Translations under genes and position numbers: made by a program | In this document: positions 12,844 through 19,165 of the stretch, piece by piece | How the letters are laid out: each line of letters starts with the position of its first letter | Position numbering within the stretch: position 1 is the stretch's first letter | The notes under the pieces: model-generated | Databases searched by the model: none | What the model was told of the DNA's origin: nothing | What the model saw: the letters and a program-made list of their open reading frames with translations, nothing else | Assembly: GCF_000970325.1 (NCBI RefSeq) | Contig: NZ_CP009518.1 | Location: 2,294,001 to 2,358,000, forward strand | Length of the DNA stretch: 64,000 bases | From: Methanococcoides methylutens MM1 | Lineage (GTDB): Archaea > Halobacteriota > Methanosarcinia > Methanosarcinales > Methanosarcinaceae | Direction: 5' to 3'

Positions 12844-13971
12844 ATGGCACAATATAAAGTACCAGTCCTGCCTGGTGACGGTATCGGCCCTGAGATCATA
12901 GCTGAGGGTAAGAAAGTCATCGACGCAGCTGGAGAGAAGTTCGGATTCGATGTTGACTGGATAGAGTTCCCACACGGTGCAGACCACTATCTTGAGACAG
13001 GCGAACTGATATCCGAGGATTCACTTAAAGAGCTTTCAGCATACGAGGCGATCTATCTCGGTTCTATCGGAGATGACAGGATCGCACCTGGCGTACTTGA
13101 GAAAGGTATCCTGCTCGCTGCAAGGTTCTATTTCGACCAGTACATCAACCTGCGTCCTATCAAGCTTCTGGAAGGCGTATGGTGCCCGCTCAAGGACAAG
13201 ACACCTGAAGACATCGATTTCGTTGTTGTAAGGGAAAACACCGAGGACTTCTACATCGGTATCGGCGGACGTGCAAATTCCGGCATGAGCAAGGACCTTC
13301 TTGAGGTCAACAGGACACTCTACAACGCAAAGTTCGGACTTGACATCGAGACCGACAGCGAGGAGATCGCATACCAGATAGGCATGATCTCAAAGGAAGG
13401 CACACAGAGAGTCATGGAATACTCCTTCGACCTTGCTGAGAAGAGGAACAAGCACGTTTCATCCGTTGACAAGGCAAACGTCCTTTCAGACATCTACGGA
13501 TTCTGGAGAGAGGAATTCAACGCAATCTCTGAGAAGCACCCTGATGTCAAGACAGACTTCAACTTCGTTGACGCCATCACCATGTGGTTCGTCAAGAACC
13601 CTGAGTGGTTCGATGTTGTCGTTACACCGAACATGTTCGGTGACATCATCACTGACCTTGGTGCAATGGTACAGGGCGGCCTCGGACTTGCACCTGGCGG
13701 AAACATCAACCCGAACGGTACAAGCATGTTCGAGCCTATCCACGGTTCAGCACCAAAGTACAAGGGCCAGAACAAGGTCAACCCTATCGCAACAATCTGG
13801 GCAGGCGCAATGCTCATCGAACAGCTCGGTGAGAAGGAAGCTGCAGACTCCATCGTCTCTGCTATCGAGCAGAACATCAAGGAAGCAAAGGTCCAGACCT
13901 ACGACATGGGTGGCTCAAACACTACCACAGATGTTGGTGACGACATCGCAAGGATCCTGCTCGGGCAGTAA
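12844..13971 (+). CDS. leuB: 3-isopropylmalate / isocitrate-type dehydrogenase
   Basis: NAD-dependent beta-decarboxylating dehydrogenase of 375 residues. Motifs: [13 protein letters not shown] at the N-terminus, [15 protein letters not shown], and [22 protein letters not shown] with the metal-binding aspartates, then [13 protein letters not shown] near the C-terminus. The neighbouring leuD supports 3-isopropylmalate as substrate; the paralogous homoisocitrate dehydrogenase (AksF) of coenzyme B synthesis cannot be excluded from sequence alone. A GGAGG ribosome site (TTGGAGGAAATTT) sits close to the ATG. Codon use suggests strong expression. Confidence 0.85.
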
Positions 13972-14254
13972 ATCCAACATATCAATATTTTCTTTTTTGC
14001 CTTCACGTCTGCAAAGGCGTGGAGGAACTTTGATCTTTTTCCGGCATCTTCTGATCCGGAGCCATTTCGATAAGTTATCAGCAGTACTTTGGTTCCAGAC
14101 CAGACATGTCTATCGAAATTAATTGAAGGCAACCTATTTTCATCTCTGTTATCTATCGATCTATCCAGTAGCAACAGGAATGCTTAAATTTGTTGTTAAC
14201 CATTCCTGCATTATTGGTTAACGGTATTTTATGAATACAAAAGGTGACATAAAA

Positions 14255-15826
14255 ATGAGAAGAAAAGACATATTCCCAAAGATAATGTGCACCCAGCATC
14301 CTGATTCGGTATCAAAGTATATTGCAACCCAAAAGGAAGTGGAGGAAGCAGTTGAAGCTGCCCTGAAGTATGAATGTGATGAATACATGCCTGATTATGA
14401 AGGTAAAGCAACCCCATACCATCAAAATGTACAGATCGTTTCAAAGTTCATAGAAGAGACAGACCTGATCCCGGGAAACAATTTTTACATCACTCCAAGA
14501 GTCCCCAGTGCAACGCAAGAAAATCGTTTTCGGCAGATCATGGTCATGATGTCAATTGCAGAGGCAAACTATAATTCCCACGAATTCTCAAGCACACAGG
14601 CCATAACAGAACTGATACATCCAATGACAAGTACTACGGAGGAGATCATCGAATCCCAGAAGCACATGGTCGAGGTCGGAGAGCTTGCCAAAAAGGAGTT
14701 CCAGTTTGAGATGGAGACACCTCGTGTGATCCCGCTGATCGAAGATGTACAGGGATTACTTAATGCAGAAGCAACCGTAGAGAACACCATCAGCTCCACA
14801 GAGAAAATGCTCGATCAGGATCTTGACAAATACAGGGTATTTATAGGAAAATCAGATTCTGCTCTTTCTTTTGGCCATGTGGCAAGTGCCCTTTCATGCA
14901 AATATGCAATAAATGAACTTTGCGGACTTGAAAAAAAGATCGATACGAACATAGGCATAATCTTCGGAGCCGGGACCCTTCCGTTCAGGGGACACCTGAA
15001 CAGGCAAAACGCACCCAACTTCTTTGAAGAATATAAAGGGATCAGCACGATCACTTTGCAATCTGCTATCAGGTTCAACCACTCGGAAAATGAATCACGT
15101 GAACTGATAAAGTATGCCAGAGAAAAGCTCTCAGGTTCACCGGAAACATATGACCAGAATGCCAAAACAGACCTGATCAATATGATCGCCATACTTGGTT
15201 CAAGATACAATCAGGTAATACAACATATAGCACCAACAGTAAGTTGCATATCCAGCCTGATGCCACAACAAAGAGACCGCCTGATACATGGAAGCAGCAC
15301 CGGATACTCAAGAGAGATACCTGAGATAAGTGGTATAACCTCACTCTGTCGCAAAGATATTGCAGAAGAGCTGGAGAAGAGTATTCCGTCAGAAATGCTC
15401 AGTTTCCCTAGGGCAATTAAATTTACAGGAGCACTTTACTCGATAGGGTTGCCCCCAGAAGTGATCGGATTGGGAAATGCTCTGGAAGACATCCGGAAAA
15501 CAATCGGAGAAGATGCATTTGAAGCCCTGATACAGAAATACTTCCCGTCAATGGGATCAGACCTTAACTTCGCTTTCGGATACCTTGACCTGAGATCTGC
15601 AGATCGGTTCCTCCCCGCATTTGCCCAACGGTCCTTACAGAAGGACGTTGACATCCTAAAAGACATATTCGACATCGATCACGACTGTGACCCATCATAC
15701 CGAAAACTGCTGGAGATAATGCAGCCTGAACTGATAAGACCTGATGAGCAGCCGGATGAAAATGTATCACACATTATAGAGTCAACACTACTCCAGATGG
15801 CAAAAATAAGAAGGACAGTTGGATAA
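14255..15826 (+). CDS. ppcA: Phosphoenolpyruvate carboxylase, archaeal type
   Basis: Carboxylates PEP to oxaloacetate, feeding the partial citric acid cycle that supplies 2-oxoglutarate or aspartate in methanogens. The protein is about 523 residues, the short archaeal form, far smaller than the bacterial enzyme. It opens with KIMCTQHPDSVSKYI and contains GAGTLPFRGHLNR and ITTLQSAIRFNH-like blocks typical of the family. The ATG at 14255 follows AAGGTGA by seven bases; an upstream ATG at 14231 lacks such a site. It stands alone, with a 283-bp leader region after leuB. Confidence 0.92.
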   Translation: MRRKDIFPKIMCTQHPDSVSKYIATQKEVEEAVEAALKYECDEYMPDYEGKATPYHQNVQIVSKFIEETDLIPGNNFYITPRVPSATQENRFRQIMVMMSIAEANYNSHEFSSTQAITELIHPMTSTTEEIIESQKHMVEVGELAKKEFQFEMETPRVIPLIEDVQGLLNAEATVENTISSTEKMLDQDLDKYRVFIGKSDSALSFGHVASALSCKYAINELCGLEKKIDTNIGIIFGAGTLPFRGHLNRQNAPNFFEEYKGISTITLQSAIRFNHSENESRELIKYAREKLSGSPETYDQNAKTDLINMIAILGSRYNQVIQHIAPTVSCISSLMPQQRDRLIHGSSTGYSREIPEISGITSLCRKDIAEELEKSIPSEMLSFPRAIKFTGALYSIGLPPEVIGLGNALEDIRKTIGEDAFEALIQKYFPSMGSDLNFAFGYLDLRSADRFLPAFAQRSLQKDVDILKDIFDIDHDCDPSYRKLLEIMQPELIRPDEQPDENVSHIIESTLLQMAKIRRTVG

Positions 15827-15871
15827 AGCAAGCGACCTTCACAGGATAAGAAAAAACACAGAAACCTTTTG

Positions 15872-15901
15872 CACAGGCATCGACAAGCGTACATGCCTGT
15901 G
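15872..15901. terminator. Inverted repeat after ppcA
   Basis: CACAGGCAT and ATGCCTGTG form a nine-base stem around a 12-base loop, 45 bp after the ppcA stop. No T-run follows on the plus strand, so it may be a terminator of weak type or an mRNA end-stabilising hairpin. Confidence 0.4.
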
Positions 15902-16003
15902 AAAAAGGAAACTATATATGAGCAGGAACAAGATATATTATAATGGGCACAAATCGTGTGCTATTGATACAAATTAAAAAAGGGGCTATTGTGGGGAAGG
16001 GTC

Positions 16004-17359
16004 ATGAAGATAAAGAGAATCGTAGTAAAGAATCTTTTTGGGACGTTCGATCATGATATCCCGCTAAATACAGATGAGCACATCACCATCCTTCACGGGC
16101 CGAATGGTATCGGAAAGACCGTACTACTTCAGATGCTCAATTCCCTTTTCCGATCCAACTACTTTGAACTCTATCGCATCCCCTTCAGCAATCTGACAGT
16201 TGAGTTCAGTGACCGGAGCAAACTGGTTGTGAAGAAAAAGCTCCATCTGGATGAAAATACCCCGCATCCACCGGAAGATAATTCCTACAGGGAACTGGGA
16301 TTTGAACTCCTGAGACCCGGAAAGAAGAAACAGCGCTATACTGTCAAACCCATTGACATAGAGGAAGTTTTCTCGTCTTTCAAGGTCGAGCATATGATAC
16401 CTGAACTTGAAAGGATCGATAATAACACATGGGTCCATTTCACCACTCAGGAAAAGCTAACATCCGAGGAAGTGATGAACCTCTTTAGTGATCGCCTTCC
16501 GCAGAAAAGGAAGGATGAACCTGCATGGCTCAAGACCGCACTGAGCTCCATAAATATCTGTTTCATCAAAACACAGCGCCTTTTAAGCATATCATATTCG
16601 CAACCGGTTGAGACAGAGAGGAAGACAGCAGTTACTCCTTCAGTGATTAGTTATTCCGAAGAACTTGCAAACCTGATGCAGAAGAAACTTGCTGAGTATG
16701 CAACCCTTTCGCAATCCCTTGACCGTACTTTCCCTACACGGATGTTAAAGAACGGAGAGCATCCGGAAACATCCATCGAGGATCTCAAAACGGAGTTAAA
16801 GGAGCTTGAACAAAAGCGCAAGTGCCTGATCGATGCGGGATTCATTGATACTGAGGAAGGAATTGATGTTGATGAGCTCAAGGATATCAATGAGAAGAAC
16901 AAGAACTTCCTGCAGCTATACATAGAGGATGTCGAACAGAAGCTCAGCGTCTTTGATGAGATCACCCGGAGGATAGACCTCCTTATCAGGATCATAAACT
17001 GCAGGTTCCTTTACAAGAAATTATCAGTGAACAAAAAGGATGGTTTCATATTCACAACCTCAGAGGACATGCGTCTCTCCCCTACCAAACTGTCTTCAGG
17101 AGAACAGCAGGAACTTGTCCTGTTCTATGAACTGTTGTTCCATGTGGACCCTGAATCCCTGATACTCATTGACGAACCTGAGATATCACTGCATGTCCTG
17201 TGGCAGCAGCAATTCCTCAGGGACCTGCAGTCAATAACAGAACTGGCTGGATTCGACATTCTCATTGCTACACATTCACCGCAGATAATACATGACCGCT
17301 GGGACCTCACCGTCGAACTTAGAGGACGTGACGATGAAGAAATACCTGACAGCCGATGA
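16004..17359 (+). CDS. AAA_15/ABC-type ATPase, AriA-like (PARIS defence)
   Basis: A 451-residue ATPase of the OLD/RecF-like ABC class. Walker A is GPNGIGKT (residues 32-39), the ABC signature LSSGEQQ lies near 362, Walker B LILIDEPE near 386, and the H-loop ATHSP near 422. Residues about 225-340 are charged and probably coiled coil. The reading frame overlaps the following DUF4435 gene by 26 bp. ATPase of this type plus DUF4435 is the gene make-up of PARIS, in which AriA senses phage anti-restriction proteins and releases AriB. The start at 16004 has GGAAGG just upstream. Role inferred from pairing. Confidence 0.78.
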   Translation: MKIKRIVVKNLFGTFDHDIPLNTDEHITILHGPNGIGKTVLLQMLNSLFRSNYFELYRIPFSNLTVEFSDRSKLVVKKKLHLDENTPHPPEDNSYRELGFELLRPGKKKQRYTVKPIDIEEVFSSFKVEHMIPELERIDNNTWVHFTTQEKLTSEEVMNLFSDRLPQKRKDEPAWLKTALSSINICFIKTQRLLSISYSQPVETERKTAVTPSVISYSEELANLMQKKLAEYATLSQSLDRTFPTRMLKNGEHPETSIEDLKTELKELEQKRKCLIDAGFIDTEEGIDVDELKDINEKNKNFLQLYIEDVEQKLSVFDEITRRIDLLIRIINCRFLYKKLSVNKKDGFIFTTSEDMRLSPTKLSSGEQQELVLFYELLFHVDPESLILIDEPEISLHVLWQQQFLRDLQSITELAGFDILIATHSPQIIHDRWDLTVELRGRDDEEIPDSR

Positions 17360-18185
17360 TATAGCCAATAGCGCCAGAATGATGCGAACCCAGTATAGCG
17401 GGAGCATCGTGATAATCGAAGGCAGCACCGACATGAGGTTGTACAAGCGCTTTGTGGAGGACAGGAAATGCAGGCTTATTCCTGCCAACGGCAAGGAGAA
17501 CGCCATTAAGGTCGTTAATATCCTTGAAAGATCGAACTTTGAAGGGATACTCACTATAGTTGATGCCGATTTCTGGCGCCTTGACAGGGTTGATTTTGAA
17601 GAAAGGAATGTTCTTGTCACCGATACACACGACCTTGAAACAATGCTTATTGAATCGGAAGCACTCGACAGGCTCCTGGAAGAATTTGCAGCACCATTCA
17701 AACTCCAGAAAATAAAAACGCCTGTCAGAGAATTGCTCCTTGAGGCAGCTATGCCCATAGGACTTTTCAGATGGCTTTCCTCATCCTCAAAGGATAAGCT
17801 ATCACTAAGGTTCAAGGACATGCATTTCGACAGCTTCATGGAGAAGTTCCCACTGTCTGTCAATATCAGGCACATGATCAGAGAGGTCAAGGAGAACTCA
17901 CATGAGTACTCACTGAACGAAAAGAAGGTCAAGAAAAAGATCATCACTCTTCTTAAGGAAGAACACGATCCCTGGCAGACATGCTCGGGCCATGATATGG
18001 TAGAGATACTTGCATACGGACTACGGGAGGTTTTCGGCAACTCCGATTCCCGCTATGCAACAGAAGGTATCGTTGACAGGAGCCTCAGGCTTGCCTATGA
18101 TATAACGATGTTCCGGAAAACTGAGCTTTACCGATCGATACAGGAATGGGAAGAGCAGAACCAGCCCTTTGTAGTACTCCAGTAA
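17334..18185 (+). CDS. DUF4435 TOPRIM-like protein, AriB-like effector
   Basis: A 283-residue protein starting with MKKYLTADDI; GAGG lies eight bases before the ATG. The N-terminal part fits the TOPRIM-related DUF4435 fold: IVIIEGSTD supplies the acidic residue E29, IVDADFWRL supplies the D77-x-D79 pair, and DTHDLETM follows at about 97. In PARIS, AriB is the toxic nuclease effector released from AriA. It overlaps its partner by 26 bp, suggesting fixed stoichiometry through translational coupling. The remaining C-terminal region is helical. A different OLD-like pair is the main alternative. Confidence 0.75.
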   Translation: MKKYLTADDIANSARMMRTQYSGSIVIIEGSTDMRLYKRFVEDRKCRLIPANGKENAIKVVNILERSNFEGILTIVDADFWRLDRVDFEERNVLVTDTHDLETMLIESEALDRLLEEFAAPFKLQKIKTPVRELLLEAAMPIGLFRWLSSSSKDKLSLRFKDMHFDSFMEKFPLSVNIRHMIREVKENSHEYSLNEKKVKKKIITLLKEEHDPWQTCSGHDMVEILAYGLREVFGNSDSRYATEGIVDRSLRLAYDITMFRKTELYRSIQEWEEQNQPFVVLQ

Positions 18186-18193
18186 GAGCAAGC

Positions 18194-19165
18194 TCAAAGC
18201 CTTGTCATGCTTCCATAATCAAGGACCATGGAAACAGGAGATGTTGTTACAGGAATACCAGCTTCTTCAACTGCAGCCACAAGGTTCACACCCACAGCTA
18301 CCAGTATGCCGGCCATTCCTTCTTCCACAGGGGCACCCACCATTGCATCAGAATCCCCAATACCCAGTACACCTCCAATGCCGGAATTCTCCAGATCTTT
18401 CAGTACCTCTTTTGTCTTTTCAACTGCCGAGGAGGGTATGTTCCGCATATTGGCAAGAATGCGACCATTACCGGTATCCAGTACATCAAGAACAGATGTC
18501 GACTGGCGTATCAGGAATATCTTGACAGGGTCGATGGATGTACCTGAATATGAGATCATATCAAGGAACTGCACAGGGTCATTGTGTTCCATCTGAATAA
18601 GACCGCCATAGGCAGGTTTGATTGGAATTCCGCTCTTGAGAAGCAGGCCATCGAAAGTCATACTGCAAACGGTGGCGATGTTCACACATCCAGGCGGCAC
18701 ATATACCCTTGAGTCAGAGTCCTCTTCAAAGACCTTTATGTATGGACTTATACTGATCCCGCCGGAGGATGCATATTTCATGACATCTATGGCATTATCA
18801 AAATCGTCCTTGTCCACAGTGGAGAGGTTCACTATGACATTGCCTTTCTTTGACAGGGGATCATAATCCGTCTTATAGATCAGCTCCTCTATCCTGGTGA
18901 TCACAAAATCAAGCCTGTCACCTATCAGGGCATCTTCCAGTTCCTTTTTTCCGGAGGCGGTGATGGTACGTCCGTTATAACCGTGCTTTTCCGTAAATCC
19001 CCTCTCATCGAGGATCCTTAAGTGATAACGGACAGCACGCTCTCCCAGATTGTAGCCACGGTTCTGCAACTCATCGGCAATGTTCCTGGCACCTATGGGC
19101 TTATCACTTTCACTGATAACGCGCATTATTTCAATGAGCTTACGTTCTATCTGAGGGTCGGTCAT
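18194..19165 (-). CDS. nrpR: NrpR-type nitrogen repressor (single NrpR domain with winged helix)
   Basis: Global repressor of nitrogen-assimilation genes in methanogens, released from DNA by 2-oxoglutarate. Residues about 1-75 form a winged helix (GARNIADELQNRGY ... RAVRYHLRILDERG), and the rest is one NrpR (DUF128) effector domain with GNVIVNLS and the late GGVLGIGDSDAM block. In Methanosarcina the function is split between NrpRI (with winged helix) and NrpRII (without), so this is the NrpRI-type partner; no second copy is in the window. It converges on the DUF4435 gene with eight bases between stops. Confidence 0.85.
   Translation of the reverse strand: MTDPQIERKLIEIMRVISESDKPIGARNIADELQNRGYNLGERAVRYHLRILDERGFTEKHGYNGRTITASGKKELEDALIGDRLDFVITRIEELIYKTDYDPLSKKGNVIVNLSTVDKDDFDNAIDVMKYASSGGISISPYIKVFEEDSDSRVYVPPGCVNIATVCSMTFDGLLLKSGIPIKPAYGGLIQMEHNDPVQFLDMISYSGTSIDPVKIFLIRQSTSVLDVLDTGNGRILANMRNIPSSAVEKTKEVLKDLENSGIGGVLGIGDSDAMVGAPVEEGMAGILVAVGVNLVAAVEEAGIPVTTSPVSMVLDYGSMTRL

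Follow-up and report, generated by a model that had tools for sequence, protein, structure and literature searches.

The locus analyzed here raises the question of whether two overlapping genes in the chromosome of Methanococcoides methylutens MM1 constitute a PARIS antiphage system, and of what such a system does in one fixed place of an archaeal genus. Both genes lie within a window of 64,000 nucleotides (the whole stretch of DNA that was analyzed); their coordinates and those of the bordering features are given in Table 1. The initial annotation had described a 451-residue ATPase overlapping a 283-residue DUF4435 protein by 26 bp, and the coordinates of the open reading frames and the Pfam assignments agree with this description. 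Longer in-frame starts are available for both genes (TTG at 15989 for ariA and ATG at 17292 for ariB), but the alignment of most relatives begins at the ATG codons at 16004 and 17334, from which the frames run to stops at 17359 and 18185, respectively. Since only 8 bp separate the end of ariB from the 3' end of nrpR, encoded on the opposite strand, ariAB is an operon of two genes.

Table 1. Features of the ariAB locus (positions within the window).
Feature	Position	Strand	Description
leuB-type dehydrogenase gene	12844..13971	+	Left border of the locus in the genus; named by eye from sequence
ppcA	14231-15826		Archaeal PEP carboxylase (Pfam); in the window genome, between leuB and ariA
TATA-box-like AAACTATATA	15909..15918	+	85 nt before the ariA start; likely ariAB promoter
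ariA	16004..17359	+	451-aa ABC/AAA_15 ATPase, putative PARIS sensor and AriB-holding subunit
ariA/ariB reading-frame overlap	17334..17359	+	26 bp, probable translational coupling
ariB	17334..18185	+	283-aa DUF4435/TOPRIM nuclease, putative PARIS effector; E29, D77, D79
nrpR	18194..19165	-	Right border of the locus, convergent with ariB; Pfam NRD1_2 9.7e-89, HTH_12 1.1e-30

The second protein of the pair matched Pfam DUF4435 (E 1.8e-15, 57.8 bits; Pfam cut-off 27) and, among PADLOC models, ranked first with AriB (E 1.2e-33, 115.2 bits, residues 24-239), the only other matching model being 'Old' (7.6e-05). No AriB chain was found by searching PDB sequences with AriB, even with a 50-row profile (one chance-level match was obtained, and the profiles gave designed TIM barrels and weak TOPRIM matches), and a comparison at the level of structure was therefore needed. 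When the AlphaFold2 model of AriB (pLDDT 94.5) was compared with the PDB, 626 matches were obtained at E ≤10 and only two at E ≤0.001, namely 8ux9_A and 8v46_D, which were taken as AriB because AriA corresponds to other chains of the same entries; TM-scores by query length were 0.53 and 0.51. With VIA, the model aligned to 8ux9_A over 260 of its 283 residues (Z 15.6, rmsd 4.2, ~10% identity), the two PARIS chains reaching Z values of 15.6 and 15.4 and the next match, OLD, a value of 8.3 over 159 residues.

Seven residues (E29, D33, D77, D79, D97, H99 and D100) were invariant in the 50 AriB-like proteins aligned, and these include the TOPRIM-type acids E29 and D77-x-D79 singled out at first sight of the sequence. 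In a weak match (E 0.073), E29, D77 and D79 aligned with the E and DPD of RNase M5, an enzyme to which the active site of AriB has been likened in the accessible text of PMC12409363. The same source names E26 as the TOPRIM residue mutated in E. coli AriB, of which E29 would be the equivalent. On the helix comprising residues 54-66, K54 is present in 47 and K59 in 11 of the 50 proteins; a correspondence with K60 and K64, the tRNA-anticodon-loop lysines of PARIS, is a guess.

The ATPase scored 69.9 bits against Pfam AAA_15 (E 4.1e-19; Pfam cut-off 32.1) and 61.5 bits against AAA_21. Its first PADLOC model was AriA (3.2e-26, 90.4 bits), followed by Septu PtuA (3.8e-24, 83.5 bits), and its best sequence match in the PDB was the AriA chain 8ux9_B (2.1e-16). 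The first 15 rows of a Foldseek search of the PDB with the AlphaFold2 model (pLDDT 81.1) were all chains of PARIS entries, with TM-scores by query length of 0.46-0.56, and VIA ranked AriA chains from six PARIS entries first (Z 17.7-24.5; 8v45_C, Z 24.5, rmsd 4.2, 341 aligned), followed by PtuA at 15.9. TM-scores as moderate as those of the two models (~0.5) might be expected at 10-20% identity. Eight residues (Walker A K38, S364, G366, E367, D390, E391, E393 and H424) were invariant in 49/49 AriA-like proteins, and E391, in Walker B, aligned with a position occupied by Q in AriA of entries 8v46-8v49, the last of which is titled E393Q. Variation along the 49-protein alignment was mild and highest at residues 81-100 and 241-300, where a fast-evolving, trigger-facing surface of AriA, if any, may be located.

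According to the available text of PMC9122126, PARIS is recognized as an AAA_15/AAA_21 ATPase neighbouring a DUF4435 protein. The published detection thresholds (AAA_15 32, AAA_21 27 and DUF4435 27 bits) were all passed by the scores given above, and the genes are adjacent. Taken together, profiles, thresholds and structural matches, the best of which were subunits of PARIS cryo-EM structures, identify ariAB of this Methanococcoides genome as a PARIS system that shares 10-20% identity with the one of known structure, which bears out the archaeal AriA/AriB pair proposed initially; profile searches suggested at that stage gave DUF4435 and PADLOC AriB for the second protein and PADLOC AriA, in first place, for the ATPase. 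The low identity to the solved AriB (~10%), the lack of any AriB chain among the PDB sequence matches, the TM-scores of ~0.5 and the small PADLOC lead over PtuA count against the assignment. If the pair were instead a Septu- or OLD/retron-type system carrying the wrong label, this would account for the closeness of PtuA in the ATPase profiles (83.5 vs 90.4 bits) and for an ABC fold that is common to PtuA, Rad50 and SMC proteins, but this reading is highly improbable: the partner is a DUF4435/AriB protein that reaches only 7.6e-05 with 'Old', its fold is far closer to PARIS AriB than to OLD in the VIA comparison, and neither an HNH nuclease, a helicase nor a reverse transcriptase adjoins the operon. 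A better fit of the ATPase to another family, raised beforehand as the observation that would speak against PARIS, was not found, structure placing PARIS AriA above PtuA.

Within the genus, AriB was detected in 10 of 11 genomes, with a single match per genome, and AriA in the same 10. The gene directly after ariB was nrpR in all 10 genomes with the pair, while a leuB-type gene was found upstream of ariA in the window genome and in the nine others read, at ~12 kb in one of them (G006) because of an insert and nearer in the rest. The one genome without an AriB match, G003, also lacks nrpR, and contig breaks lie where the leuB-type gene ends and within the gene that follows the ABC1 kinase gene; the leuB-nrpR interval is therefore not assembled there. 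In the 10 genomes with the interval assembled, ariAB was always in the same place. The pair had been introduced as either a resident or an isolated insertion; the former description suits the genus, where the pair is always beside nrpR, and the latter was abandoned. Likewise, the absence of a mobile element noted for the window stretch was confirmed there, yet it did not extend to G006, with transposase-like ORFs in the upstream spacer.

That genome also carries an extra, truncated copy of ariA, consisting of the promoter and approximately the first 260 coding bases, ~10.7 kb upstream of the intact ariAB and sharing 91% identity with the full gene of that genome across 369 bp (L036 7316-7703, L037 from 3655); ORFs between both copies were transposase-like, Fic-like and surface-protein-like, as named by eye. 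Different small ORFs occupy the leuB-ariA spacer in G005 and G010, and tblastn found no ppcA in the regions inspected around ariA in the other nine genomes of the genus.

Selection on the pair was estimated as dN/dS (NG86), each genome being compared with the window. For the five nearest genomes, values were 0.037-0.046 for AriA and 0.050-0.082 for AriB, with 0.038-0.046 for NrpR, 0.053-0.077 for the ABC1 kinase and 0.053-0.140 for LeuB. Four more distant genomes, for which dS was saturated, gave rough values of 0.044-0.049 for AriA and of 0.080-0.109 for AriB (three computable). Purifying selection acts on both proteins as it does on the products of the flanking genes. A decayed, non-functional relic is extremely improbable, as dN/dS is far below 1, the catalytic residues are invariant and the frames of ariA and ariB are free of inner stops in 10/10 genus genomes with the pair.

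Protein distances of AriA and AriB correlated (0.96-0.98) with those of NrpR, ABC1, LeuB and an ABC protein over 45 genome pairs, and within clades (21 pairs) correlations dropped to 0.67-0.89, that between AriA and AriB being 0.67. Moreover, dS of ariA to the nearest genome was 0.40, about twice that of most neighbours (0.16-0.25). The latter value and the within-clade correlation of AriA and AriB indicate that some recombination inside the genus is possible. The GC content at third codon positions was 0.529 for ariA and 0.563 for ariB (0.512 ± 0.043 for the 42 window ORFs of ≥200 aa), while total GC was slightly lower than that of window ORFs (0.451 and 0.461, respectively, vs. 0.480 ± 0.019). 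Twelve families of direct repeats (14-32 nt, imperfect) were detected between 13900 and 19300, none of them flanking the pair alone on both sides. A recent insertion of ariAB was accordingly set aside, given no clear sign of it in GC3 or flanking repeats.

The TATA-box-like AAACTATATA was common to all 10 full-length ariA copies of the genus that were aligned, within a conserved stretch of ~110 bp beyond which the upstream sequence was variable, and probably represents the ariAB promoter. An inverted repeat at 15865-15908, 3' of ppcA, suggests that ariAB is transcribed separately from ppcA. In the leader of ariA (15946-15962) there is a further short inverted repeat, GGCACA-N5-TGTGCC in G001 and with one mismatch in the window; a different one, read by eye, is found at about the same position in the other clade. 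These repeats could be an operator or an RNA hairpin. Control of ariAB by NrpR was also considered and is unsupported, since GGTA-N6-TACC and GGAA-N6-TTCC, which we take to be the NrpR operator motifs, had no match with ≤1 mismatch between ppcA and ariA. Over window positions 1-64000, 23 GGTA-N6-TACC-like sites (one mismatch allowed, none exact) were counted, approximately twice the 11.7 of shuffled sequences, and none of 100 shuffles reached 23.

Outside the genus, AriB was patchily distributed (21 of 226 genomes of the class), and its presence in the genus differed from that in the rest of the class with a Fisher p of 3.5e-9, a value that ignores relatedness. The synteny around nrpR, which had been proposed as a check, was read in relatives and revealed the same place across the genus and another gene in G030, a genome of a different genus of the family: there, leuD-leuB, nrpR-ABC1 and the genes beyond are in the order of the window, with a 492-aa gene (radical-SAM-like by eye) between leuB and nrpR instead of ariAB. 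In the remaining genomes from outside the genus that were inspected around nrpR, the leuB side was not conserved, so that G030 alone provides the comparison of the interval outside the genus. In a tree of joined AriA and AriB (49 rows), Methanococcoides formed one clade (support 100/100, stem 0.61). The nearest rows, with weak support (85/57), were from ANME-2, other Methanosarcinales and one Chlorobiaceae MAG, and the next well supported group (96/94) also included Acidobacteria/Aminicenantes. This topology fits vertical descent in the genus and an earlier transfer between phyla, bearing in mind that foreign contigs may end up in bins.

Relatives were collected as 74 loci found by AriB alone and then inspected for an upstream ATPase. 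An ATPase gene was located directly upstream of AriB, in the order seen in the window, in 68 of them, so the pairing is not due to chance; of the remaining six, four begin at most ~220 bases from a contig end, and the other two show a match to no more than a fragment of AriB. In 51 of the 68 pairs, ariA extends 1 to 26 bp beyond the first AriB codon that aligns. Neighbour proteins of the loci from outside Methanococcoides were also scanned (149 of 168), in a set that left out ten loci (four from Methanococcoides and six from close cyanobacteria), ORFs of <100 or >700 aa and ORFs >4 kb away. Among these 149 proteins no conserved third partner was found, Pfam families recurring in at most three members (E 1e-5) and PADLOC families in at most two (E 1e-10); defence-like neighbours occurred singly (type II methyltransferase, LmuB, PbeA, Cas6, CARF_2OG and mad2). 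In two Methanosarcinales MAGs, one of them named ANME-2, near-identical proteins adjoin the pair (L102 10824-11666 and L106 2086-2961), and that of L102 matches the Nop (snoRNA-binding) domain, again a housekeeping neighbour. No AriB relative was confirmed in IMG/VR contigs (509 pattern matches).

Other defence genes were also common in the genus: HSDR_N, a type I restriction domain, and Cas1 were each present in 10 of 11 genomes (0 to 5 and 0 to 7 matches per genome, respectively), PglZ in 3 of 11 and, at E 0.001, an OLD-like TOPRIM in 5 of 11, a count to which AriB itself contributes in part. The presence of ariAB in as many genomes is consequently not special; the pair stands out by its one copy, one place and strong constraint. 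It is unusual for a defence system to be fixed in a genus and constrained like housekeeping genes, and both features count against reading ariAB as PARIS defence. They would be accommodated if the PARIS module, acquired once and fixed between leuB and nrpR, had become part of the genus core genome as a resident brake on translation, a stress-response or growth-control module in which AriA senses the cellular state (restriction loss, DNA damage and cold stress being candidate cues, with viruses not the main trigger) and frees AriB to slow translation. This reading, which we regard as unlikely, is favoured by the single place and single AriB match per genome, by an AriA dN/dS as low as that of its neighbours, by the metabolic genes nearby, and by the precedent of Cran1, an archaeal OLD-family ATPase that is essential in the cell cycle and apparently not antiviral, as far as the accessible text of PMC12796447 goes. 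On the other hand, the pair has the architecture and, probably, the catalytic residues of PARIS, its relatives are distributed over ANME archaea, cyanobacteria and other phyla in the scattered manner of a mobile defence gene, and the frequencies of Cas1 and HSDR_N imply that presence alone is no proof of domestication. The pair most likely serves in defence, with a benefit that lasts, a domesticated role being possible.

We consider it probable, with good confidence, that ariAB is an archaeal PARIS operon with its own promoter, encoding a tRNA-cutting AriB that is held by AriA and freed by a trigger, and that it was acquired once (or lost elsewhere) and has been inherited vertically since. In E. 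coli PARIS, as described in PMC11455837 and PMC12409363, a ring of AriA holds AriB until Ocr-like proteins release it, and the released AriB dimer cuts tRNA-Lys(UUU), Thr(UGU) and Asn(GUU). The protein parts required for a mechanism of this type are present in the window. By analogy, AriA would form a ring of ATPase subunits by which AriB is kept inactive. A trigger encoded by the virus, a part played in E. coli by acidic anti-restriction proteins like Ocr, would then alter AriA; AriB, once freed, would dimerise and cut host tRNA in the anticodon stem-loop, presumably using two metal ions bound by its TOPRIM acids, and translation and growth would halt before the virus cycle is completed. Given the HSDR_N match in the window genome, a restriction first line for PARIS to guard probably exists. 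As to its origin, ariAB most likely entered the leuB-nrpR interval once on the Methanococcoides stem, or was lost elsewhere, with vertical inheritance thereafter.

The published survey of PARIS by Rousset et al., in its accessible part, included archaeal genomes, and hence PARIS in archaea is not new as such. Literature searches, outside which most subscription papers lie, listed no paper on PARIS in Methanococcoides or on a PARIS fixed in a genus. What is added here is a resident pair in one place of one genus, in one copy and under strong constraint. These results extend PARIS to an archaeal clade with structural and evolutionary evidence and place what would be an abortive-infection module in the core genome of a genus rather than in a mobile hotspot. 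The locus is thus a case for asking whether guard-type systems become permanent, and whether an anti-restriction protein of archaeal viruses or plasmids or a cellular signal sets ariAB off. If AriB cuts archaeal tRNAs, it could serve as a translation-shutdown tool for methanogens; if the resident brake were the true reading, ariAB would be a PARIS with a non-defence or dual role, of which we know no example so far.

Compared with known systems, the window pair shares with E. coli PARIS (8ux9, 8v45-8v49) the ariA-ariB order, the combination of an ABC/AAA_15 ATPase and a DUF4435 TOPRIM nuclease, the Walker B and, probably, the TOPRIM acids, and the best fold match for both proteins; it differs in being archaeal, in its 10-20% identity in structural alignments, and in occupying one chromosomal place across a genus, not being seen on a prophage or satellite. 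The PARIS-type pairs of ANME-2 and other Methanosarcinales, Chlorobiaceae, Acidobacteria, cyanobacteria and others (within L102-L149) belong to the same subfamily (35-51% identity to the window protein for AriB and 38-56% for AriA), with the same order, close spacing and invariant residues, and little common neighbourhood. In Septu, the HNH nuclease PtuB is encoded beside PtuA, an ABC ATPase without TOPRIM, whereas the window ATPase has DUF4435/AriB as its partner, ppcA and nrpR as flanks and no PtuB. OLD, Gabija and retron TOPRIM proteins have in common with the window pair an ABC ATPase and a TOPRIM domain; in OLD-type proteins both are in one chain, with an adjoining helicase in Gabija, while AriA and AriB are two separate chains between ppcA and nrpR, unlike OLD class 1/2 and Gabija, and the fold scores of OLD, Gabija, retron and PtuA proteins were clearly below those of PARIS. 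Finally, Cran1 of Saccharolobus islandicus, likened here from its description in the accessible text of PMC12796447, is also archaeal, of the OLD superfamily and a resident gene, but it consists of one protein, which has been reported to be a nickase that acts in the cell cycle.
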